Assembly (NCBI RefSeq): GCF_040219335.1
Contig: NZ_JAVJSQ010000005.1
Span: 186,001-250,000, forward strand
Source: Gimesia sp.
GTDB lineage: Bacteria > Planctomycetota > Planctomycetia > Planctomycetales > Planctomycetaceae
Direction: 5' to 3'
Length of the DNA stretch: 64,000 nucleotides
The notes under the pieces are model-generated. The model saw only the letters and a list, made by a program, of their open reading frames with translations, had not been told where the DNA came from and made no database searches. Positions 28,004 to 41,557 of the stretch are shown piece by piece. A program made the translations under genes and the position numbers. Position 1 is the stretch's first letter; each line of letters starts with the position of its first letter.

Positions 28004-28065
28004 AGCGAATAAATTAAATAAGTTAATATATTGTCCCGCCTCAGTGATTTAAACAGGATTTGATT

Positions 28066-31000
28066 ATGCCCTCCCTCCGCGTCTCTCCCCATCTTTCTCG
28101 GAACTTCTCGCTGATTTTGTTCCTGTGTGTGCTTGTTGGGTTTGTCAGCAGTCTGACTCTAACTGCAAATTCGGCAGATAAAAGTGCTTCCCCCAAGAAG
28201 GTCGACTACGCGGCAGAGATGAAACGGATTCCTCCGCGGGCTCCAAAGGATGCGTTGAAGTCATTTAAGATTCATCCTGATTTCAAAATCGAACTGGTGG
28301 CCGCTGAGCCATTGCTGCGTGATCCGGTTGCCATGTGTTTTGATGCCCGGGGAAGGGCATACGTGGTGGAAATGCCCGAATACAACGACGCTCACAAGGA
28401 AGGTTACAGCTCTGTCAAACTGCTGGAAGATACGGACGGTGATGGCGTCTTCGATAAAAGTTCTCCGTTTCTGACAGATGTCACTTTGCCGACCGCAGTC
28501 TTCTGTTACCAGGGGGGCGTATTTGTCGGCGCACCACCTTATGTCTATTACTGCAAAGATACGAATGGCGACGGGAAGGCTGACGTGCGGGAAGTCGTCA
28601 TGGAAGGCTTTGGGCGGGACAAAGGGGATGAGGGGATGATCAACTCCTTCCGCTGGGGAATGGATAACCGTATTTACTTCTCAACGGGCATCGATGGCGG
28701 AATGGTTACCGTGGCTGCGGAAGGACCAGAGAAACAATTTAATACCAAGGGACGGGGCGTGATCCTCGATCCTGCAACGCGTAAGATTGAACTCACAACA
28801 GGCGGCGGACAGCATGGGATGAGCCTGGGAATCTGGAACCGGGCCTTTGTCTGTGCCAACAGTGTGCCGATGCAGGTGCTGATGTACGATGACCGCTATA
28901 TCGCCCGCAACCCCTACCTGGCACCACCGCCGGCTCCGGTGAATATTGCTCCCGGCGGAAAGTTCACCAAGCTGATGCGCATCAGTCAGATCGAGCCCTG
29001 GCGAATTTTGCGGACCCGTCTCCGGGCAGCCAGCGAGCGCGGGGATTCTGAAGGCGGAAAGCCCTCGGGCTTTTTCACTGCAGCGACCGGGATTACCGCC
29101 TATCGGGGCGATGCCTGGCCCTTAGAGTATCAGGGAAATTTGTTTGTCGGTGAACCCGCTAATAATCTTGTCTATCGAGCTGCGCCCAAACCCGATGGTT
29201 TGTCGCTGGTGGCTCCGCGTGCCGACCAGGATGCTGAATTTCTGGCCTCTACCGATGTCTGGTTTCGACCGGTGCAGTTTGAAAATGGCCCGGATGGTGC
29301 CTTGTACGTATTGGACATGTATCGTGAGCTGATCGAAGGGGCTCCCTTCATTCCGGAAGAGATACTTAAGCACATCGATCCCATCGGCGGGCAGGACAAG
29401 GGACGCATCTATCGGATCGTGCCTAAGAACTTTCAGCGCCCCGCTCTATCTGATTTGACGAAACTGTCATCAAAGGAACTCGTGGCACTGCTCGACAGCG
29501 ATAACGGCTGGACGCGCGATACCGCACAGCGGCTGATCTACGAGCGTCAGGACACGTCGGTTGTTCCTGATCTGAAACAACTGGCGGCAGCTTCCAGGAA
29601 GCCGGTAACCCGCGCGACTGCACTCTGGTCATTACAGGGCTTAAAGTCTCTCGATGCGAAAACTTTATTGCAGAGGATGCATGATAATGATCCCCAGGTG
29701 AGCATTCAGTGCCTGCGGATCGCGGAACAGCTTGCTGAGGATCACTTGATTCAACAGGCTATGGTTTCCCTGGCTGGTCATGTCTCACTGGATGTGCGCT
29801 ACCAGGCTGCATTCTCGCTTGGAGCCATCCACACCAGAGCCCGCAATCAGGCGTTGGCGGGTCTGCTTGCTCGTGAAATTGATAACAAGTGGATGCGGAT
29901 GGCTGTGCATAGTTCGCTGAACCGAGGGGCTGGAGAAGTATTTTCAATACTGGCGAAGAGCTCTGTCACGCTCAATAATAAAAACGGTCAGGCATTTCTT
30001 AATGATCTGGCTACCCAGATCGGTGCCCAGTCTGACGTGGAGAACGTTAAGCTGTTGATGGGGGCTCTGGAAAGCTTGCCCCAGTCCCAGCAGAAGTTGG
30101 CACAGCAGTCATTTCGTAATCTGCTTTCCCGGGCATCCGCATCAACAAAACAGGTGCTGGCAAACTCGAAAAGCGAATATACGGCTCAACTGTTATCGGG
30201 GATGATGAAGTCGACCATTGAGCAGGCGACCAACTCGAAACTGCCTGTAAAGACCCGCGTTGAGGCCATTCCCACTTTGAGTATTGGAAGCCCTGATGAA
30301 ACCTTACCGGTTTTCGAGGAGCTGCTGTCAGTCCAGCAGCCGCTCCCGATTCGCCAGAAAGCAATCACCACGTTAGGGCTGGTGAATGATGAGCGGGTGC
30401 CGGAACTGCTGGTAGAAGCCTGGCCTGGTCTGAGCCCGCAATTACGCATGAGTGCAGTCGAAACACTGTTCTCCCGCCAGCCGTGGCAGGTCGCCTTACT
30501 GGATGCGGTCAAAGCAGGTGATATCAACTCCGGTGATATCAGTCCCGAACGCGTTCAACTCCTGAAAAGCAGTCAGGACAAAGCGATCAAAAAACGGGCG
30601 ACCGACCTCTTTCAGAATCAGCGACTGACGGGTCGCTCGGATGTGATCAAGCAGTATCAGTCTTCGCTGAAACTTAAAGGTGATCCCGCCAACGGTAAGC
30701 TGGTCTTCAAGAAAAACTGTGCTGCCTGTCATCGTCTGGAGAATGTAGGCGTGCAACTGGGGGCAGACCTCAAGGCGATCAAGGACCGCGGGACCGAAGC
30801 CGTACTGCTGAATATTCTAGATCCCAACCGTGAAGTAAAGCCACAATATGTGACTTACCTGCTGGTTACCACTCAGGGGCGGACCATTACTGGTCTGATC
30901 AAGGCAGAGAATGCAAACAGCATTACGATCGCCCGGGCAGATGGTACCAGCGATACTGTTCTGCGGATCGACATCGATGAACTGATCAGCTCGAAGCTCT

Positions 31001-31083
31001 CGTTCATGCCTGAAGGCCTGGAAAAGCAGATCGATCAACAGCAGATGGCAGACCTGCTGGCGTACCTGAATTCGATCAGGTAA
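28066..31083 (+). CDS. PVC-type heme-binding CxxCH protein (dehydrogenase propeller, HEAT repeats, cytochrome c)
   Basis: An exported protein of 1,005 residues. ATG 28066 has AGGA 7 bp upstream, and a TTG two codons earlier is less likely. A signal peptide is followed by a soluble/membrane-bound dehydrogenase-type beta-propeller (~60-470), typical of the PVC family, with FKIELVAAEPLLRDPVAM and calcium-site-like DTDGDGVFD and DTNGDGKAD. HEAT-like helical repeats cover ~480-840. A C-terminal heme domain carries CAACH at residues 885-889 and a following GADLKAIKDRG segment. Such proteins are thought to oxidise sugars or similar compounds and pass electrons to the attached heme. A paralog of this whole unit makes up the C-terminal two-thirds of the product of 33550-38745. 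Confidence 0.9.
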   Translation: MPSLRVSPHLSRNFSLILFLCVLVGFVSSLTLTANSADKSASPKKVDYAAEMKRIPPRAPKDALKSFKIHPDFKIELVAAEPLLRDPVAMCFDARGRAYVVEMPEYNDAHKEGYSSVKLLEDTDGDGVFDKSSPFLTDVTLPTAVFCYQGGVFVGAPPYVYYCKDTNGDGKADVREVVMEGFGRDKGDEGMINSFRWGMDNRIYFSTGIDGGMVTVAAEGPEKQFNTKGRGVILDPATRKIELTTGGGQHGMSLGIWNRAFVCANSVPMQVLMYDDRYIARNPYLAPPPAPVNIAPGGKFTKLMRISQIEPWRILRTRLRAASERGDSEGGKPSGFFTAATGITAYRGDAWPLEYQGNLFVGEPANNLVYRAAPKPDGLSLVAPRADQDAEFLASTDVWFRPVQFENGPDGALYVLDMYRELIEGAPFIPEEILKHIDPIGGQDKGRIYRIVPKNFQRPALSDLTKLSSKELVALLDSDNGWTRDTAQRLIYERQDTSVVPDLKQLAAASRKPVTRATALWSLQGLKSLDAKTLLQRMHDNDPQVSIQCLRIAEQLAEDHLIQQAMVSLAGHVSLDVRYQAAFSLGAIHTRARNQALAGLLAREIDNKWMRMAVHSSLNRGAGEVFSILAKSSVTLNNKNGQAFLNDLATQIGAQSDVENVKLLMGALESLPQSQQKLAQQSFRNLLSRASASTKQVLANSKSEYTAQLLSGMMKSTIEQATNSKLPVKTRVEAIPTLSIGSPDETLPVFEELLSVQQPLPIRQKAITTLGLVNDERVPELLVEAWPGLSPQLRMSAVETLFSRQPWQVALLDAVKAGDINSGDISPERVQLLKSSQDKAIKKRATDLFQNQRLTGRSDVIKQYQSSLKLKGDPANGKLVFKKNCAACHRLENVGVQLGADLKAIKDRGTEAVLLNILDPNREVKPQYVTYLLVTTQGRTITGLIKAENANSITIARADGTSDTVLRIDIDELISSKLSFMPEGLEKQIDQQQMADLLAYLNSIR

Positions 31084-32626: not shown

Positions 32627-33247
32627 TCAGTCGATATTTGAAATCAGCGCCTGAATGGATGGTTCCAGTTTGCCGGAACGAAACATGGAGACAATCGCCA
32701 GGTGTTCATAATAGACCTTCATGGGGTCATTCGGCTTCTGAAAGCCTTCCAGAAAATGCCGCCGCAAGCGGGAGACGAGCGTCAGCCAGATGGTCATCAG
32801 ACCCTGTTCCGGGGAGCGGGCGACAATCGACTGATGGAATTTGATGTCCAGTTCGGTCAGTTGCAGGAAGTCCTGGTTTTCACAAGCGGCTTTCATCTCA
32901 GTGAGCAGGGCTTCCCACTCCGCAAAATCTTCGTTTTTCAGATCATCAAAGATGGATCGGAGAGCGAAGGTTTCCACGGTCTGTCTGAGTGGAATCACAA
33001 GTTCCTGCATGGATTTGGATGAGGAAGGTGCCACCCGCATTCCACAGTTGGGTTTGGACTCCACCATGCCTTCATGAGCCAACTGCTTCAGGGCCTCGCG
33101 AATCGGAGCCCGACTCACCTCGAAACGCTCTGCCAGACTCACTTCACGTAAGGCGGCGCCCTCTTCGATGCGTCCGGTAATGATTTCCATTCGCAGTTGA
33201 TCAGCGATGCTGGCTGACGGGTTCGATGTCAGTTCTACCTGGCTCAT
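32627..33247 (-). CDS. GntR-family transcriptional regulator, FadR (FCD) subfamily
   Basis: A DNA-binding repressor-type protein of 206 residues. The N-terminal winged helix (~1-75) carries the GntR signature LREVSLAERFEVSRAPIREAL and LAHEGMVESKPNCGMRV. The C-terminal all-helical FCD ligand domain (~85-200) holds the expected Asp/His metal or ligand residues around LDIKFHQSIVARS. The ligand is unknown; FCD regulators commonly sense organic or sugar acids. It is divergent from the large fusion gene at 33550. Two palindromic sites with core TTGTATACAA in the shared upstream region make auto-regulation and control of that gene likely. Confidence 0.93.
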   Translation of the reverse strand: MSQVELTSNPSASIADQLRMEIITGRIEEGAALREVSLAERFEVSRAPIREALKQLAHEGMVESKPNCGMRVAPSSSKSMQELVIPLRQTVETFALRSIFDDLKNEDFAEWEALLTEMKAACENQDFLQLTELDIKFHQSIVARSPEQGLMTIWLTLVSRLRRHFLEGFQKPNDPMKVYYEHLAIVSMFRSGKLEPSIQALISNID

Positions 33248-33309: not shown

Positions 33310-33410
33310 AAACAGTGGGAGAAACTAGAAAGTTCACCTGCGGAATAACGAGAATGTCTCACACAATTCAGGTCATGGGCCTGATTGCGATGTTTTGTCT
33401 CTTTGTTGGA

Positions 33411-33420
33411 TTGTATACAA
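33411..33420. promoter_or_regulatory. Candidate GntR operator O2
   Basis: The second copy of TTGTATACAA, 130 bp before the large fusion gene and 111 bp from O1. Its TATACA may also serve as a -10 element, so binding would block transcription. Confidence 0.7.
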
Positions 33421-33549
33421 AGTGTGCTCCTCAGGCTTGACTCGACAGTACAGAGCCAACAGACTGGAAATGAAGGACTTTCTGCCTGTGGGAGACGAAT
33501 CAGGCAGACGGTTCTACGCTCGACCCCTGCTGAAAATGGAGATTTCAAG

Positions 33550-36500
33550 ATGCCCTCTGCTGTTCGTCCCCAAGCTGCTTCTCGCATTCGTGGTTCCCTG
33601 GTATGGTCACTGCTCCTGGTTTTGCCTGGTCTGCTGATGGATTATGGCATTTCCCAATCAGCTGAAAAACAGGCGACGCAAACCGGCAATCGACTGGTCT
33701 ATCTGGATCAGGACGATCCCTACTATGTGTCACTCAATTTTCCCAAACTGACGACCCCTCAGTGGTACGGCGATAAAGAAGTCAAGGCGGTTTGCGTGCT
33801 GGCGATCGACGACATGCGCGATGTCCAGAAGTACGAAACCTACCTGCGACCGATCCTGGAGCGACTGAAAGAGATCAACGGTCGGGCCGGAGTCAGCATC
33901 ATGACCTGCCGCGTCGATCCAAAAGATCCCCACCTGCAGAAGTGGATTCAGGAAGGGGTGAGTATTGATGTGCATACTTACGATCATCCCTGTCCGTTGT
34001 TGAAAGATCGAGATTTTGAGAAGGCCAAAGGGACCGTTGAACGGTGCATCGATCTCTTGAACCAGATTCCCAACAGTCAACCAGTGGCGTACCGTATGCC
34101 GTGCTGTGATTCACTCAACACAGTCAGCCCCCGCTTCTTTAGTGAAATCTTCAATCAGACTACCCCCGAGGGGAACTTTCTGCAGATCGATACTTCGGTC
34201 TTTCAGGTATTTACGGATCAGGATCCGGACCTGCCTAAGGAACTCGTTACCGATCCAAACGGGCAGGGGAGAATCGAAAAATACGTTCCCACAGATCGAG
34301 GGTTCGTGAATACGATTTTCAATTACCCCTATCCTTATCCCATCTCGAGGCTCTGCTGGGAGTTTTCCTGTGTGACTCCCAGTGACTGGTCAGCCCAGCA
34401 TCGTCAAAAGCCCTTTAATCCACTGACGGTTCGCGACTGGACTGCCGTGCTTGATGCAACCGTGGTCAAAGAAGGGACGTTTAATCTTGTATTCCATCCG
34501 CACGGCTGGATCAGCAATGAGCAGATCATCAAACTGATTGATCATGCCGTTCAGAAGCATGGATCCGCGGTGCAGTTTCTTTCTTTCCAGGAAGTATTGG
34601 AGCGAATGAATCGGCATCTGCTGGCGGGACAACCGCTGCGTAATCAGCAGGGAGCCGACAATGGCGTGCGTCTGCTGGATCTGAATGCAGATGGATTCAT
34701 GGATGTGATCATCGGCAATGAGCAGGTTCAGAAAACCCGTATCTGGAATCCCCGGCAGCAGGCCTGGAGCGAAACCGGATTTCCCACTCGACTCGTGGCT
34801 GCTCCGGATGCCAGGGGAAATCAGGCGATTCGGGGACGGTTCGGAGTTCTAAACGAACAGGTAATCCTGTTGACCCTGACGCCGGAAGTCTCCGCGGCCT
34901 GGAAATTTGATGGCAAAACCTGGCAGCCTGCTACCGAGTTACTGGCTGGTTTACCCGAGGGGCAGGACGCATTGTTCACACTAAAAGCAGGCCAGGATCA
35001 GGGGCTCCGACTGCGGGATCTGAATCATGATGGTCAGTGTGAACTGCTCGTTTCCAATCCCGGACAGAATGCAATCTACACATGGTCTCCAAAAGATACC
35101 TCTTGGAAGAAATTACCCTGGTCTCTTCCTGATTCTGCGTCGATCGTCGACGAACAGGGCCGCGATGCGGGACTCCGTTTTGTCGATATCAATGAAGACG
35201 GCTTTGAAGACATGCTGTTTTCGAACGAGAATCACGCTGCACTCTACCTGTTCGCTTCGCTTAAGTCAGGCTGGAAGAAAGTCTTTGATGAGGATCGGGC
35301 TGACGACGGGGGACCAGTGCCGATGATTTCGCGCAAGGGAACCAATAACGGAGCCTGGTTCCATTCGAAGCATCTTTGGGTGCAGAACGAAGATACCGCC
35401 AAAATGAAACACCTGGTGGCGGGCAAGTCGTTTGAGGAATTACTGGAGGAGCAGGGACCTCAGCCTAAAGATCCGGATGCGGCTCTGAAGACAATTCAGG
35501 TCAAACCCGGATTTCATGTGGAACTGGTGGCGTCTGAACCACTGGTGAAGGACCCGGTCGCATTTGACTGGGGGCCCGATGGAAAACTCTGGGTGGCAGA
35601 AATGGCTGACTACCCGCTGGGGGTGAATGAATCAGGTACGTTCGATGGACGAATTCGTTTTCTGGAAGATACGGACGGAGATGGTAAGTACGACCGATCG
35701 ACTGTCTTTCTGGAAGGCGTGGGTTATCCCACGGGAGTGATGGCCTGGCGAAAAGGAGCGATTATCACAACCGCTCCTGAAGTTTTCTATGCGGAAGATA
35801 CTGATGGCGATGGCAAAGCTGATCACCGCGAATCCCTGGTGACCGGGTTTGCAGAGGGGAACCAGCAGCACCGGGTAAATGGTCTGCGCTGGGGCCTGGA
35901 TAACTGGGTGTATCTGGCCAATGGTGATTCCGGTGGGGATCTGTTGTCTGTCAAGACAGGAGAAAAACTGAAATTCGGCCGTCGGGATTTACGAATCAAA
36001 CCTGATACCGGTCAGATGGATCCGCAGTCGGGGCAGACCCAATTCGGTCGTGAACGGGATGACTGGGGGAACTGGTTTGGCAGCAATAACAGTAACCCCG
36101 CTTTTCATTATGCATTGGCAGATCATTATCTCCGTCGTAATAAAAACCTGATTGCTCCTGATGCGAAGGTGCAGGTCTCAATTCGTCCCGGGGCGGCAAC
36201 GATTTTTCCAGTCAGTCGCACACAGGTTCGTTTTAATGACTTCAATAAGGTCAATCGGATCACCTCTGCCTGCGGTCTTTGTTTTTATCGCGATGATCTA
36301 CTGGGGGAGGAGTTCACGGGGAACTCCTTTATCTGTGAGCCGGTACATAACCTGGTACATCGCGAAATAGTGAAATCGAAAGGGACGACCTTTACCAGCC
36401 AGCGGGCACAGAGCGAACAGGATTCCGAATTTCTGGCATCAACAGACAACTGGTTTCGCCCTGTAATGGCCCGCACAGGACCAGACGGTGCGCTCTGGGT

Positions 36501-38745
36501 GGCCGACATGTATCGGCATGTCATTGAACATCCGCAATGGATTCCCAAAGAGATGCAGGAAAAACTGGACCTGCGCGCCGGAAAGGAACAGGGGCGGATT
36601 TACCGGATCGTTCCAGATAAGGCATCCGTACGAACGTTACCCCGTCTCGATCAGCTTTCCCCCTCTGATCTGGTTCACCAACTGGAAAGCCCGAATGGGA
36701 CACTGCGTGATATGGTTCAGCAGTTGATTGTGACACGCAGCGACAAGTCTGTTGTCCCTGATCTGAAGCAGATGGTTAAGCAGGGAAAATCGCCGGCCGC
36801 GCGTCTGCATGCACTTTGTACGCTCGATGGACTGGACGCGATCACCGAAGATGTTCTCCTGGCGGCACTGGCTGACAAACACCCTGGAGTCCGCCGCCAT
36901 GCGATTCGCCTGAGCGAGCCATTTCTGAATGAGTCACCTGAACTGGGGGATCGTGTGCTGACATTGGTCGGGGATGTTGATCTGCAGGCGCAGATGCAGT
37001 TGGCTTACTCACTCGGAGAATGGAATTCAGCCAAGGCGGGATCAGCCCTGGCTCGTCTGGCTATGGCACACGATCAGGATGTTTTTCTGCGGACAGCGAT
37101 CTTGAGTTCCGTAGTACCACATCTGGATTCCTTTACCGCCACTCTGTTTGAAGAATTACAGGGGAAGCAGCCACCGTTACAGATTCTGAATTCTCTGGTA
37201 ATCATGGCGATGTCCGCTGATCAGCAGGATGTGCTCGCAGATATTTATGAGCGAGTTGCACAGTCAGGGAAAAAACAACGTTGGCAGACCTGGCAGTTCG
37301 AGGTGATGGCAACGTTATTGCAGTCCCTGGCTCGCAAAAATCAGAGCCTGCCCCAATATGCAGGGAAAGCCAGCCCCCGACTGCAGAAGATACTGGAACA
37401 ACTCAAGCCACTGTTTCAAGCGGCACGAACGATCGCCGCTAATGAAACAGCAACAGTCAGTTTACGCAGGCAGGTCCTGCCACTGCTTGGACATGGTTTT
37501 GCGCAGCAGGCTGAAGATCTGGTACTGTTGTCTGAGATGTTATCGCCTCGAAATCCGCGGATCATACAGAGTGCCGCTGTGGCAGCGCTCTCACAACGAG
37601 GCAATTCGCAGACAACAGAACTTATGCTGGCACGTTGGAAAAACTATGGCCCGGGTTTACGCTCTGAAGTGTTGAGCTCCCTGCTAAGTCACAAGGCAGG
37701 AGTGCAGTCTGTTCTGGAAGGATTGAAAGACAAAACAATCTCTGCAGCGGACATCGATGCTTCGAGTCGACAGCTGTTGTTGAATAACAAGGATCAGCAA
37801 GTCCGACAACAGGCTGAGAAGCTGCTGGCTGCTTCACTTGATTCTAATCGTGCCAGGGTCGTCAAAGAGCACGCTGAGGTGGTCTCACTGTCTGGAAACA
37901 CTGAAGCGGGGCATCAGGTGTTTGTGAAACGCTGTGCTGTCTGTCACCAGCTCAACAATGAGGGCAAGCCAATCGGTCCAGATCTGACAGCCCTGACAGA
38001 CAAATCGCCTCAGGCCATGCTGACGGCGATTCTGGATCCGAATCGTGCCGTGGAGAATAAATACATCAGCTATCTGGCTGTAACCGAAGACGGACTGACA
38101 TTTAACGGATTGCTGGCGTCCGAGAGTGGCGAGAGCATTACGCTGGTGCAAAGTGATGGCAAGACGAAGACGCTGCTCCGCACTGATCTGGAAGAGCTGA
38201 TCAGTACCGGAAAGTCACTGATGCCCGAGGGGTTGGAAAAGGATATGACGCCTCAGAATCTCGCGGATGTGATCGCGTATTTGAGTTCAACAAAATTACC
38301 CAGAAAAACATTTCCGGGCAACGAACCGGCTGTCGTTGTCGCGGAAGCTTTGCGCGGCGACTACTTTTTGACCCCTCAGCTGGCAGAAATCTATGGTTCT
38401 ACTCTCAAGTTTGAGAGCAAGTATAAGAATCTCGGATACTGGCAAAGTGAGAATGACCGGGCAGTCTGGATGCTCGATGTCCCTCAATCAGGCGCGTATG
38501 ACGTCTATCTGGAATTTGCCTGCCCTCCCGGGCCAGCCGGTAATCGTCTTTTACTGGAAACAGGGGGAGAACAGCTATTCTGGACTGTGCCCTCCACGGG
38601 AACCTGGGATGTCTATCAGAATCGCAGAATTGGCACCATTACTCTGCCTGCCGGAAAGACCCGCCTGACGGTTCAGAGCCAAGGCAAAATTAACAATGCC
38701 TTACTCGACCTGAAAACCGTCCGTCTGCGCGTCTCCAGCAGGTAA
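33550..38745 (+). CDS. Giant fusion: deacetylase-like, FG-GAP, PVC heme-binding dehydrogenase, HEAT, cytochrome c, beta-sandwich
   Basis: An exported protein of about 1,731 residues. ATG 33550 has GGAG 8 bp upstream and precedes a signal peptide; the frame is open further upstream but lacks both. Order: a polysaccharide-deacetylase-like domain (~70-350; VLAIDDMRDVQKYETYLRP, HTYDHPCPLL, VFHPHGWISNEQIIKLIDHA); three FG-GAP/VCBS units (~365-620; LLDLNADGFMDVIIGN, LRDLNHDGQCELLVSN, FVDINEDGFEDMLFSN); a dehydrogenase-type propeller (~650-1010; DTDGDGKYD, DTDGDGKAD); HEAT repeats (~1030-1440); a heme domain with CAVCH at residues 1462-1466; and a C-terminal beta-sandwich (~1590-1731). It appears to combine polysaccharide deacetylation with sugar oxidation. 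GntR operators lie upstream. Confidence 0.88.
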   Translation: MPSAVRPQAASRIRGSLVWSLLLVLPGLLMDYGISQSAEKQATQTGNRLVYLDQDDPYYVSLNFPKLTTPQWYGDKEVKAVCVLAIDDMRDVQKYETYLRPILERLKEINGRAGVSIMTCRVDPKDPHLQKWIQEGVSIDVHTYDHPCPLLKDRDFEKAKGTVERCIDLLNQIPNSQPVAYRMPCCDSLNTVSPRFFSEIFNQTTPEGNFLQIDTSVFQVFTDQDPDLPKELVTDPNGQGRIEKYVPTDRGFVNTIFNYPYPYPISRLCWEFSCVTPSDWSAQHRQKPFNPLTVRDWTAVLDATVVKEGTFNLVFHPHGWISNEQIIKLIDHAVQKHGSAVQFLSFQEVLERMNRHLLAGQPLRNQQGADNGVRLLDLNADGFMDVIIGNEQVQKTRIWNPRQQAWSETGFPTRLVAAPDARGNQAIRGRFGVLNEQVILLTLTPEVSAAWKFDGKTWQPATELLAGLPEGQDALFTLKAGQDQGLRLRDLNHDGQCELLVSNPGQNAIYTWSPKDTSWKKLPWSLPDSASIVDEQGRDAGLRFVDINEDGFEDMLFSNENHAALYLFASLKSGWKKVFDEDRADDGGPVPMISRKGTNNGAWFHSKHLWVQNEDTAKMKHLVAGKSFEELLEEQGPQPKDPDAALKTIQVKPGFHVELVASEPLVKDPVAFDWGPDGKLWVAEMADYPLGVNESGTFDGRIRFLEDTDGDGKYDRSTVFLEGVGYPTGVMAWRKGAIITTAPEVFYAEDTDGDGKADHRESLVTGFAEGNQQHRVNGLRWGLDNWVYLANGDSGGDLLSVKTGEKLKFGRRDLRIKPDTGQMDPQSGQTQFGRERDDWGNWFGSNNSNPAFHYALADHYLRRNKNLIAPDAKVQVSIRPGAATIFPVSRTQVRFNDFNKVNRITSACGLCFYRDDLLGEEFTGNSFICEPVHNLVHREIVKSKGTTFTSQRAQSEQDSEFLASTDNWFRPVMARTGPDGALWVADMYRHVIEHPQWIPKEMQEKLDLRAGKEQGRIYRIVPDKASVRTLPRLDQLSPSDLVHQLESPNGTLRDMVQQLIVTRSDKSVVPDLKQMVKQGKSPAARLHALCTLDGLDAITEDVLLAALADKHPGVRRHAIRLSEPFLNESPELGDRVLTLVGDVDLQAQMQLAYSLGEWNSAKAGSALARLAMAHDQDVFLRTAILSSVVPHLDSFTATLFEELQGKQPPLQILNSLVIMAMSADQQDVLADIYERVAQSGKKQRWQTWQFEVMATLLQSLARKNQSLPQYAGKASPRLQKILEQLKPLFQAARTIAANETATVSLRRQVLPLLGHGFAQQAEDLVLLSEMLSPRNPRIIQSAAVAALSQRGNSQTTELMLARWKNYGPGLRSEVLSSLLSHKAGVQSVLEGLKDKTISAADIDASSRQLLLNNKDQQVRQQAEKLLAASLDSNRARVVKEHAEVVSLSGNTEAGHQVFVKRCAVCHQLNNEGKPIGPDLTALTDKSPQAMLTAILDPNRAVENKYISYLAVTEDGLTFNGLLASESGESITLVQSDGKTKTLLRTDLEELISTGKSLMPEGLEKDMTPQNLADVIAYLSSTKLPRKTFPGNEPAVVVAEALRGDYFLTPQLAEIYGSTLKFESKYKNLGYWQSENDRAVWMLDVPQSGAYDVYLEFACPPGPAGNRLLLETGGEQLFWTVPSTGTWDVYQNRRIGTITLPAGKTRLTVQSQGKINNALLDLKTVRLRVSSR

Positions 38746-39178: not shown

Positions 39179-41557
39179 GTGTCGGACGAAGGTTTTAAAG
39201 ATCCCCTGGATGGTGAAGAAACTGTGGACGAATTTCCTCCGGTCAATGTAGATGAAGAAGAGACTGTCGATCAGTTTCCCCCCATTGATATCAAGGAAAT
39301 CGACAAAACTGTCATCGGTGTCGACAGTGCCGCCAGTAAATCTGCTCAGCAGATGGGAGGCCCCTCCGCAGAGAAAGCAGCTGCCTGGATTGGCAGGAAA
39401 CTGGGAAAATATGAAATTACCGGTTTCCTGGGTCAGGGCGGTATGGGGGTCGTCTATCGTGCTTACGATGATACCATCGGCCGCGAAGTCGCCATCAAGC
39501 TTCTGCCGGCTGAATTAGCCTCCGATAAAAATATGCTGGAACGGTTTCTGGCTGAAGCCCGGGCTGCCGGTCGCTTGACGCATCCTCATATTGTCTCGAT
39601 TCACGATATCGGGCAGGAAGGGGATGTCCATTATATCGTCATGGAACTGATGACCGGTGGCAGCACCGACGATCATCTGGAGACTATCGGCCCCTATTCA
39701 CCCCTTCAGGCAACACGCATTATTGCTGATGCCTGTGAAGGTCTGATGGTGGCTCATACTTCGGGGCTGGTACACCGGGACATCAAACCCGGGAATCTTT
39801 TGCAGTCCCGGCATGGCACGATCAAGGTCGCTGACTTTGGTCTGGCGAAACGGGTTGTTCAACAGTCACACCAACTGACTCAGGACGGGCAACTCATCGG
39901 GACGCCTTACTTCATGAGCCCCGAACAATGTGAGTCTAAACCAGTCGATTTACGCAGTGATATCTATTCCCTGGGCGCAACTTACTACACTCTACTGACG
40001 GGCGATCATCCCTACGAAGACGCGGGCAGCATCGTACAGATTATGTATGCTCACTGTCATGCCGATCTGCTGGATCCTCGGAATGTCAACGCACAGATCC
40101 CGGAAAAATGTGCCGCCATCGTGCAGAAATCCATGGCGAAGAAACCGGAAGATCGCTATCAGTCCGCCCAGGAAATGCTGGTTGATCTGAAAGCGATCAC
40201 GGCCAATTCCGAGAAGTACGGCGATACCACTGTCCTCAGCCAGGCAGAACTGGACCGGTCACATGCAAAGCCCCAGGAGTCTGGTGGCTGGCGGAAAAAC
40301 GTATTCAATGGTGTCGTGTTCCTGGTAACCTTTTTACTTTTGACACTGGTTCCGTGGTATTTCTGGAACGGAAATCAAAATCAGGAAGCGGGAAAATCGG
40401 TCGCACCCCAGGCAAATGTCGGACCTTCCGGAGAGGGAGTAACAGCAGATAAAATTCTGCTGGGAACCTCGACAGCTATGACCGGAGCCAACAAGGAACT
40501 GGGCAATAACATGGTCATGGGGATGCAGGCCTGTTTCAAGCGAGTCAACGATGAAGGAGGCATTGGGGGGCGCCAGATTGAACTCGTGGTCAAAGACGAC
40601 GGGTATGAACCCGATCAGGCCCTCGCAAACATGCAGCACTTGTTTGAAGAAGATCAGGTTTTCGCGGTAATTGGAAATGTGGGAACTCCTACAGCGAGAG
40701 CATCGGTCCCGTATGCGAATGAGCATCAGCATCTGTTCTTCGCTCCTTTTACCGGTGCACAGGCCCTCCGCCGTGATCCACCTGATCGTTATGTATTCAA
40801 CCTGCGAGCCAGTTATGCCGATGAAACTGCATCCATGGTGCATTACTTTGTTGAGAAGCAGCGCATTGCTCCTGATAAGATCGCAGTCTTTGCACAGAAC
40901 GATTCATTTGGCGATGATGGCTTCGCCGGCGTAGCCAAGGCACTGGAGAAGTATAAGATCCAGCCGGAAAATATTCTTCGCGTAGGCTATGACCGGAATA
41001 CAACTCAGATCACCGATGCGGTCGAGCAGATTGTCCAGAATCAGAACCGGGTAGAGGCACTGATTATGGTAGCGACATTCAAGCCAGCCGCACTGATGGT
41101 TCAGCAGCTCAAAGATCGCAAGCTGAAGATCCAGACCGCAGCTGTCTCGTTTGTCGGTAGTGAACTGCTGGCCCAACAGTTCAAAGAAATGGGGGCCAAA
41201 TATGCAGAGGGCGTAATCGTCACTCAGGTTGTCCCCTACTATCTTTCTAGTGCAACAGGGGTCTTACGCTATCGCGATTCTCTGAAAAAGTATTACCCGC
41301 TTTCCAAACCAGGATTCGTATCGCTGGAGGGATATCTGGCAGCTGAATGTCTGGTTGAAGGTTTGAAAAAACTACAGGCGTCAGGAAAGGCGGTCTCGAC
41401 GGAGAATCTGATTGACGCCCTGGAGCAGATCAAGAATCTGGATCTGGGGATTGGGCCGATCATCAATTTCGGTCCCTCACGTCATCAGGCTTCAGATCGG
41501 GTCTGGGGGACAGTCTTGGGAAAAGACGCTCGCTATCAGGAGCTGGAACTGGAATAG
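39179..41557 (+). CDS. Transmembrane Ser/Thr protein kinase fused to a periplasmic-binding-protein sensor
   Basis: A protein of 792 residues; the start is GTG 39179, preceded by an AGGAAA. An acidic N-terminus with repeated EETVDxFPP units (~10-45) leads into a complete Hanks-type kinase (~77-345): glycine loop GQGGMGVVYRAYD, VAIK lysine, HRDIKPGNLL near residue 200, VADFGLAKR near 218 and MSPEQ. One transmembrane helix follows (~372-395). The outside part (~415-790) is a full Leu/Ile/Val-type ABC substrate-binding protein (Peripla_BP_6): ILLGTSTAMTGANKELGNNM, GGIGGRQIELVVKDDGYEP, FFAPFTGAQALRR and FAQNDSFGDDGFAG. The natural reading is a receptor kinase that detects an amino acid-like or other small ligand outside the membrane. 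No transporter genes are nearby. Confidence 0.92.
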   Translation: MSDEGFKDPLDGEETVDEFPPVNVDEEETVDQFPPIDIKEIDKTVIGVDSAASKSAQQMGGPSAEKAAAWIGRKLGKYEITGFLGQGGMGVVYRAYDDTIGREVAIKLLPAELASDKNMLERFLAEARAAGRLTHPHIVSIHDIGQEGDVHYIVMELMTGGSTDDHLETIGPYSPLQATRIIADACEGLMVAHTSGLVHRDIKPGNLLQSRHGTIKVADFGLAKRVVQQSHQLTQDGQLIGTPYFMSPEQCESKPVDLRSDIYSLGATYYTLLTGDHPYEDAGSIVQIMYAHCHADLLDPRNVNAQIPEKCAAIVQKSMAKKPEDRYQSAQEMLVDLKAITANSEKYGDTTVLSQAELDRSHAKPQESGGWRKNVFNGVVFLVTFLLLTLVPWYFWNGNQNQEAGKSVAPQANVGPSGEGVTADKILLGTSTAMTGANKELGNNMVMGMQACFKRVNDEGGIGGRQIELVVKDDGYEPDQALANMQHLFEEDQVFAVIGNVGTPTARASVPYANEHQHLFFAPFTGAQALRRDPPDRYVFNLRASYADETASMVHYFVEKQRIAPDKIAVFAQNDSFGDDGFAGVAKALEKYKIQPENILRVGYDRNTTQITDAVEQIVQNQNRVEALIMVATFKPAALMVQQLKDRKLKIQTAAVSFVGSELLAQQFKEMGAKYAEGVIVTQVVPYYLSSATGVLRYRDSLKKYYPLSKPGFVSLEGYLAAECLVEGLKKLQASGKAVSTENLIDALEQIKNLDLGIGPIINFGPSRHQASDRVWGTVLGKDARYQELELE

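Follow-up and report, generated by a model that had tools for sequence, protein, structure and literature searches.

A single open frame encodes the deacetylase-redox chain

The window analysed here is a stretch of 64,000 nucleotides from Gimesia sp. (contig NZ_JAVJSQ010000005.1, positions 186,001 to 250,000), and it carries a gene in which a polysaccharide deacetylase-type domain is joined to a putative sugar-oxidising module and a cytochrome. The gene lies in an open + strand frame at 33385-38745 without any internal stop, and the ATG at 33550 gives a protein of 1731 residues (33550-38745, + strand, as are all features of this gene) with a hydrophobic N-terminus. From front to end, the chain consists of a signal peptide, a CE4-type deacetylase, an FG-GAP propeller, a propeller of the soluble glucose dehydrogenase (sGDH) fold belonging to DUF7133, HEAT repeats, a CxxCH cytochrome and a CBM35/6-like sandwich. 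Profiles and folds agree with a preliminary description, made from the letters of the window, in which the deacetylase, FG-GAP, propeller, HEAT, CxxCH heme and sandwich parts had been placed on one chain. The signal peptide (33550-33663, residues ~1-38) was judged by eye from the sequence and has no visible lipobox, and the fusion protein is probably exported. AlphaFold2 models of the two halves reached a mean predicted local distance difference test (pLDDT) score of 93.9 for the N-half and 86.5 for the C-half.

The deacetylase part keeps the residues of the CE4 active site

The CE4-type polysaccharide deacetylase occupies 33700-34626 (residues ~51-359), as delimited by Pfam, fold match and conservation. 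Polysacc_deac_1 matched residues 79-188 with 26.5 bits against the curated Pfam cut-off of 23.1, and the CE4 barrel in the N-half model was superposed on 3rxz with a VIA-align Z of 20.3 (root mean square deviation, rmsd, 3.5; 248 aligned), with further fold matches to 1z7a (19.6), HP0310 (19.2) and the insect chitin deacetylase 5z34 (18.7). When the sequence was aligned to Bc1960 (5o6y), D87-D88, H142/H146 and R182-P184 fell on the first three CE4 motifs. D87-D88 (33808-33813), opposite the DD of 5o6y, would supply the base and a metal ligand of motif 1, H142-x3-H146 (33973-33987), opposite its HTxxH, would supply the metal ligands of motif 2, and R182-M-P184 (34093-34101) corresponds to motif 3. 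H316 (34495-34497) is the probable general acid, which we take to be the His of motif 5, and the roles given here to the CE4 motifs are likewise our assumption.

Conservation was counted in 106 non-redundant loci together with L239-L254, using CE4 domains of more than 230 residues, DUF7133 domains of more than 340 and cytochrome domains of more than 115. D87, D88, H142, H146, R182, P184, D187, D279 and H316 were invariant in 116/116 CE4 domains, fused and stand-alone alike. The CE4 active site, that is, the Asp-His-His triad, the catalytic Asp, the motif 3 Arg and the motif 5 His, is thus intact as far as the aligned residues tell. Because the ligands D88, H142 and H146 are invariant, the loss of metal ligands that the preliminary description had held up against its own assignment is not seen. 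Compared with the known CE4/NodB-homology deacetylases (HP0310, PuuE-like proteins, insect chitin deacetylases, PdaC and Bc1960), with which the window protein has the fold (Z 12-20) and the D-D, HxxxH, R-x-P and H residues in common, the window family has two stretches of its own in the deacetylase part (RMPCCDS and FHPHGW), an FG-GAP-type region behind it and, mostly, a fusion to redox parts.

The FG-GAP/VCBS-type beta-propeller (34639-35409, residues ~364-620) scored 30.9 bits with FG-GAP (cut-off 22.1) and 36.8 with FG-GAP_3 (cut-off 26.9) in Pfam. Three DxNxDG calcium loops of the FG-GAP type start at residues 377, 490 and 546 (377-385, 490-498 and 546-554), in line with the three FG-GAP units described before. 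In Foldseek, LGI1 was the top match (E 7.7e-6), and the Agrocybe lectin (E 3.8e-5) and PVL (E 6.5e-4) were also matched. These similarities of the modelled fold to mushroom lectins that bind N-acetylglucosamine (GlcNAc) are a hint, not proof, that a GlcNAc polymer may be the target.

The C-half combines an sGDH-fold propeller with a c-type heme domain

The six-bladed propeller with the fold of soluble sugar dehydrogenases (35473-36618, residues 642-1023) was matched over its full length by DUF7133 of Pfam (565.9 bits, above the curated cut-off), and over residues 654-1024 by TIGR02604 of NCBIfam (300.9 bits, cut-off 122.2). In VIA-align, ranks 1-13 for the propeller were all sugar dehydrogenases using pyrroloquinoline quinone (PQQ) or members of AA12 (Z 24.3 down to 21.5), headed by the PQQ sugar dehydrogenase 3a9g (Z 24.3, rmsd 3.4, 287 aligned), 6i1q (23.9) and 6jt5 (23.8). 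The kinship of DUF7133 to GSDH is given by this fold and by paralogues, such as L229, that are matched by both profiles. By sequence alignment, H774 (35869-35871) falls opposite the catalytic His of GSDH (His144 of sGDH, His363 of CcPDH), and it is kept in 82/82 CE4-fused propellers. Among 18 propeller positions picked as conserved alignment columns, 11 were invariant in the same 82 domains, including N771, Q773, N777, D813, Q831, N847, D966 and D986 beside H774.

The propeller is followed by HEAT-type helical repeats (36661-37887, residues ~1038-1446), which are helical in the model and were matched by HEAT_2 with 31.7 bits (cut-off 27.7). The cytochrome c domain (37894-38289, residues 1449-1580) scored 119.4 bits with TIGR02603 of NCBIfam (cut-off 68.15) and 36.9 with Cytochrom_C of Pfam (cut-off 21.3). 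Its heme ligands, CxxCH (37933-37947) and the distal M1558 (38221-38223), were kept in 77/77 cytochrome domains. The nearest solved relative of this domain by sequence is the C-terminal domain of Kustd1711 of Kuenenia (7zs0, E 3.9e-16), in which M292, the residue aligned with M1558, was assigned as the distal heme ligand from mutants and structures in the available part of PMC11791136; the position of the distal Met is thus the same, while Kustd1711 has two hemes and the window protein one. Propeller, HEAT repeats and cytochrome belong with the PVC-type heme-binding CxxCH proteins (TIGR02604, HEAT and TIGR02603), which include Lac161_ORF7. The C-terminal beta-sandwich (38332-38742, residues ~1595-1731) matches CBM35/CBM6 folds in Foldseek, among them 2w1w (CBM35) with a TM-score of 0.74 by target, and its 15.6 bits with CBM_35 of Pfam lie below the cut-off of 28.

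The fusion recurs across genomes as one frame

Near-full-length copies were found in 14/16 other same-genus genomes searched, several of which are one-contig genomes; the exceptions were a partial copy on a short contig (G006) and a genome of 74% completeness (G015) without the N-half among the matches listed. The deacetylase/FG-GAP half was matched at E 1e-10 or better in 121/347 genomes of the class. A scan of named genomes gave at least 148 confirmed relatives, from which the best 80 were taken; 15 of these are named as verrucomicrobia, and most of the remainder as planctomycetes. In this set, deacetylase, DUF7133 and cytochrome stood in one frame in 47 cases, 14 had only deacetylase and FG-GAP, 16 were cut by the end of the sequence, and three were apparently broken. 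The architecture search called for in the preliminary description returned many members: among the 106 non-redundant loci, 66 were single-frame deacetylase-DUF7133-cytochrome fusions, 22 had no DUF7133 in frame (one of them, L208, carries the rest of the protein in neighbouring frames), 15 were cut by the sequence end, and three were broken. Compared with the window protein, the 20 class-level fusions (L051-L070) are 57-69% identical in CE4, 55-65% in DUF7133 and 51-62% in the cytochrome, and less so in FG-GAP (37-51%) and HEAT (29-40%). A copy with all six parts, in a frame of 1800 residues, was found in the culturable Singulisphaera acidiphila DSM 18658 (L160).

These counts also bear on whether two genes were joined in error by assembly or frame, a concern that had been raised before and to which we now give a negligible probability. 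A few relatives are interrupted or split over neighbouring frames (L169, L178, L205 and L208), and nothing of the kind was found for the window; the recurrence of one open frame in the genus genomes and in the 66 loci given above rules the artefact out.

Two records labelled Emcibacter and Euryarchaeota (L132 and L181) carry planctomycete-like copies, and their contigs are probably misbinned. In the 7.9 Mb genome of the window itself, the DUF7133 family (30 matches in 27 frames) and the ceramidase-like family (23 matches) are markedly expanded.

Related chains join the same redox part to other modules

Single chains of 2061-2467 residues in 13 other genomes unite a ceramidase-like amidase with the deacetylase and a DUF7133-HEAT-cytochrome-sandwich part, both amide hydrolase modules preceding the redox part (loci L088, L089, L090, L129 and L239-L247). 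FG-GAP was matched over only 36-62 residues in 8/13 of these chains, so this part may be shortened or diverged. A further protein, L211, encoded in the genome of the window, has a ceramidase-like amidase at its front and a DUF7133 domain of the same clade as that of the fusion. PF04734 scored above its cut-off in L211, L090 and L239, covering ~230/509 profile positions. The HTHSAP motif of the ceramidase-like modules, which presumably binds zinc, kept H138, H140 and P143 in 19/19 modules, and inspection by eye did not find the nucleophile Ser.

In a tree of DUF7133 domains, for which 68 CE4-fused rows had been thinned to 34, a clade of 53 rows with support 100/99 brings L251 and L208 together with 47/47 deacetylase-fused and 4/5 ceramidase-fused rows, and the fifth ceramidase-fused row, L252, lay outside it. 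Double fusions occupy two positions in the tree, which implies more than one gain or loss of the ceramidase-like amidase. The His at the position of H774 was present in 47/47 deacetylase-fused, 0/5 ceramidase-fused and 9/35 other rows; the 35 include ten orthologues of a stand-alone paralogue in the window (28060-31083) and two identical pairs, and one of the nine is L208, the split copy of the fusion itself. The protein L251:4663-9837 (- strand, 1725 residues) has a weak ceramidase match, a 3-keto-disaccharide hydrolase domain, DUF7133, HEAT and cytochrome; its propeller branches beside the deacetylase-fused group (join 97/87; group without L251 94/80), and it lacks the His of H774, as do the ceramidase-fused relatives.

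The 3-keto-disaccharide hydrolase domain is also joined to DUF7133 in L220, a protein of the window's own genome, and to a canonical GSDH propeller with HNGG and GLRN motifs in L236:1554-3548 (+ strand; the same gene as L099). The L236 protein likewise lies in the own genome, where the pqqC search gave no match. In the available part of PMC9007349, a 3-ketotrehalose hydrolase and an endo-xanthanase/lichenase are characterised members of the 3-keto-disaccharide hydrolase family, and a 3'-ketolactose hydrolase acting after a periplasm-facing dehydrogenase is proposed from mutant fitness. ThuA and GDSL are further fusion partners of DUF7133; one chain of the own genome (L223:1024-6186, + strand) holds ThuA, F5/8 type C, GDSL lipase, DUF7133, a plastocyanin-like copper domain and cytochrome c. 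As these gene structures indicate, DUF7133-HEAT-cytochrome is a redox chassis that is repeatedly joined to modules predicted to prepare or cleave sugars.

A possible route of deacetylation and oxidation on one chain

The computed folds, the conservation of the key residues and the repeated occurrence of the fusion lead us to infer that an N-acetylated or more generally N-acylated glycan may be deacetylated and then oxidised on one exported chain, with the electrons leaving via the fused heme. Activity, substrate, order of steps, cofactor, C3 position and coupling are the inferred elements of this reading, which we place about midway between doubtful and probable. In a first step, D88, H142 and H146 would hold a divalent metal with which the CE4 domain strips acetyl groups, and the FG-GAP propeller and the C-terminal sandwich would keep the chain on the polymer. 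In a second step, the sGDH-fold propeller would oxidise the deacetylated sugar at one hydroxyl, probably that on C3, with H774 acting as base, after which a 3-keto-glycoside hydrolase could cut the chain. In a third step, the fused c-type heme with its His/Met ligands would receive the electrons and hand them on to a periplasmic acceptor, and the HEAT superhelix would space or dock the modules. That both activities would act on the same polymer is suggested by the fusion.

Several results weigh against this reading. PuuE allantoinase, an enzyme other than a sugar deacetylase, is among the top fold matches of the CE4 part (Z 18.8). The deacetylase part stands without DUF7133 in frame in the 22 of 106 loci given above, and therefore can work alone. 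Many other DUF7133 proteins carry a His one residue before the H774 position, so that the match of H774 rests on spacing. Moreover, the genus neighbours of the gene include no obvious glycan locus, and the 23 ceramidase-like matches of the own genome show that such genes are common.

Two points count most heavily against it: the PQQ anchor is replaced, and a related purified protein is reported to hydrolyse lactose. CcPDH of Coprinopsis, which consists of cytochrome b, AA12 and a third domain, resembles the window protein in the six-bladed fold (6jt5, see above), the position of the catalytic His and the fused cytochrome. It binds PQQ through Arg430/Asn431 according to the accessible part of PMC6881789 (see also the abstract of PMC4332668). 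In the window protein, by contrast, the corresponding Arg-Asn pair of GSDH is Thr830-Gln831 by sequence alignment, with Gln831 invariant, the heme is c rather than b, a HEAT linker is present and a deacetylase stands in front. Further, pqqC had no match in 30/30 relatives, the own genome included, although foreign PQQ could be taken up; the search for pqqC works, since it was over the cut-off in 1/294 genomes of the phylum. PqqE was over the cut-off in 0/30 genomes, with control genomes likewise below that cut-off. Given the replaced anchor and the lack of pqqC matches, we do not file the propeller as a PQQ enzyme. Sugar oxidation by the propeller is half supported: of the sugar-oxidising module proposed in the preliminary description, the modelled fold and the aligned catalytic His stand, and the PQQ-binding pair does not.

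The same replaced pair and the same pqqC result would suit a propeller that is a glycoside hydrolase, in which case the chain would be a deacetylase plus glycosidase and the heme structural or regulatory. SMP-30/DFPase-type hydrolases share the fold at about Z 21 (21.4 and below, tied with the lower dehydrogenases), and the related Lac161_ORF7, a purified TIGR02604-HEAT-cytochrome protein, is reported in the available text of PMC5342196 to hydrolyse lactose with a Km of 1.8 mM, which is the sole tested function of the DUF7133-HEAT-cytochrome family that we found in the literature searched. However, elimination after oxidation would likewise split lactose, and the Lac161_ORF7 assay cannot distinguish the two. 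The strict conservation of CxxCH and distal Met in all 77 cytochrome domains points to electron transfer, and the sGDH-position His is kept in the CE4-fused rows and absent from the ceramidase-fused relatives and L251, so we regard a glycosidase as unlikely. It is decidedly improbable, in our view, that the deacetylase is the only enzyme, with sGDH-fold propeller and cytochrome serving at the cell surface as a platform for binding or redox sensing. The non-enzyme HHIP does use this fold as a pure binding module (Z 20.7-21.1), and the absent PQQ anchor and the loci without in-frame DUF7133 would fit such a platform, but invariance at 11 of the 18 propeller positions, H774 included, goes beyond the apparent needs of a scaffold, and the cytochrome ligands are intact.

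A different question is whether the same chemistry would serve envelope modification instead of feeding, with a wall or surface polymer of the cell itself (peptidoglycan, holdfast) as the substrate. The peptidoglycan deacetylases HP0310, PdaC and Bc1960 are good structural matches of the CE4 part. We consider this improbable, as the carbohydrate-binding-like sandwich and the lectin-like propeller favour an accessory nutritional role, the patchy presence in the 121 of 347 class genomes suits nutrition better than housekeeping, and a divergent GntR/FCD regulator adjoins the gene.

The reading of stepwise deacetylation and oxidation could be widened to an as yet undescribed route for N-acetylated glycans in Planctomycetes and Verrucomicrobia, in which single exported chains would deacylate the amino sugar (by CE4 with or without the ceramidase-like amidase) and oxidise in place by an sGDH-fold enzyme without the usual use of PQQ, electrons would leave via heme, and a 3-keto-glycoside hydrolase would cleave, all without a classical glycosidase. 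This extension is tentative, and we think it rather doubtful. The fusions to an intact-site deacetylase, to a ceramidase-like amidase (some genomes) and to a 3-keto-disaccharide hydrolase (a near-sister protein) provide the large planctomycete family DUF7133-HEAT-cytochrome with a concrete class of substrates to test, the N-acylated amino-sugar glycans, and with an order of reactions. They also raise the question of which cofactor serves an sGDH-fold enzyme that lacks the PQQ anchor in a genome without a pqqC match. The conserved deacetylase-redox fusion may thus point to an unstudied breakdown of acetylated sugars.

No precedent for the deacetylase-redox architecture was found in the literature searched, in which subscription journals are poorly covered; the accessible part of PMC11131199 mentions planctomycete AA12 and not CE4. 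The parts themselves are known families, and what appears to be new, judging from the literature searched, is the architecture, its spread over two phyla and the chains with an extra ceramidase-like module. A link to anammox hydrazine synthase, pursued through the available portion of PMC12758564, was a false lead.

The stand-alone paralogue and neighbouring genes

The stand-alone DUF7133-HEAT-cytochrome paralogue at 28060-31083 (+ strand) has propeller, HEAT and cytochrome in common with the C-half of the fusion (35% identity in alignment). It differs from the fusion in lacking the deacetylase, the FG-GAP part, the sandwich and the His of H774. The preliminary description had equated the last four parts of the fusion with this protein; since it stops after the cytochrome domain, three parts correspond and the sandwich does not.

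Synteny around the fusion gene is confined to the genus. The commonest neighbours of the fusion were planctomycete cytochrome/DUF1549, DUF1501 and ABC ATPase genes, the first two in about a dozen of the 106 loci each (for example L195:1-1107 and L055:12540-14198, both - strand). A conserved sulfatase or degradative locus was considered and rejected, each neighbour family occurring in at most ~13/106 loci. A ceramidase-like gene lies directly beside the fusion in 4/106 non-redundant loci (L058, L059, L069 and L206, the last below the Pfam cut-off) and in the near-duplicate L061, an adjacency that is only suggestive. In the genus, the GntR/FCD regulator (32627-33247, - strand in the window), divergent from the fusion gene, adjoins it in 10/10 stretches examined. 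In 9/10 of these stretches, the fusion also stands beside a gene that in the window lies at 39179-41557 (+ strand) and encodes Pkinase and Peripla_BP_6 in one protein, which may sense an outside ligand.

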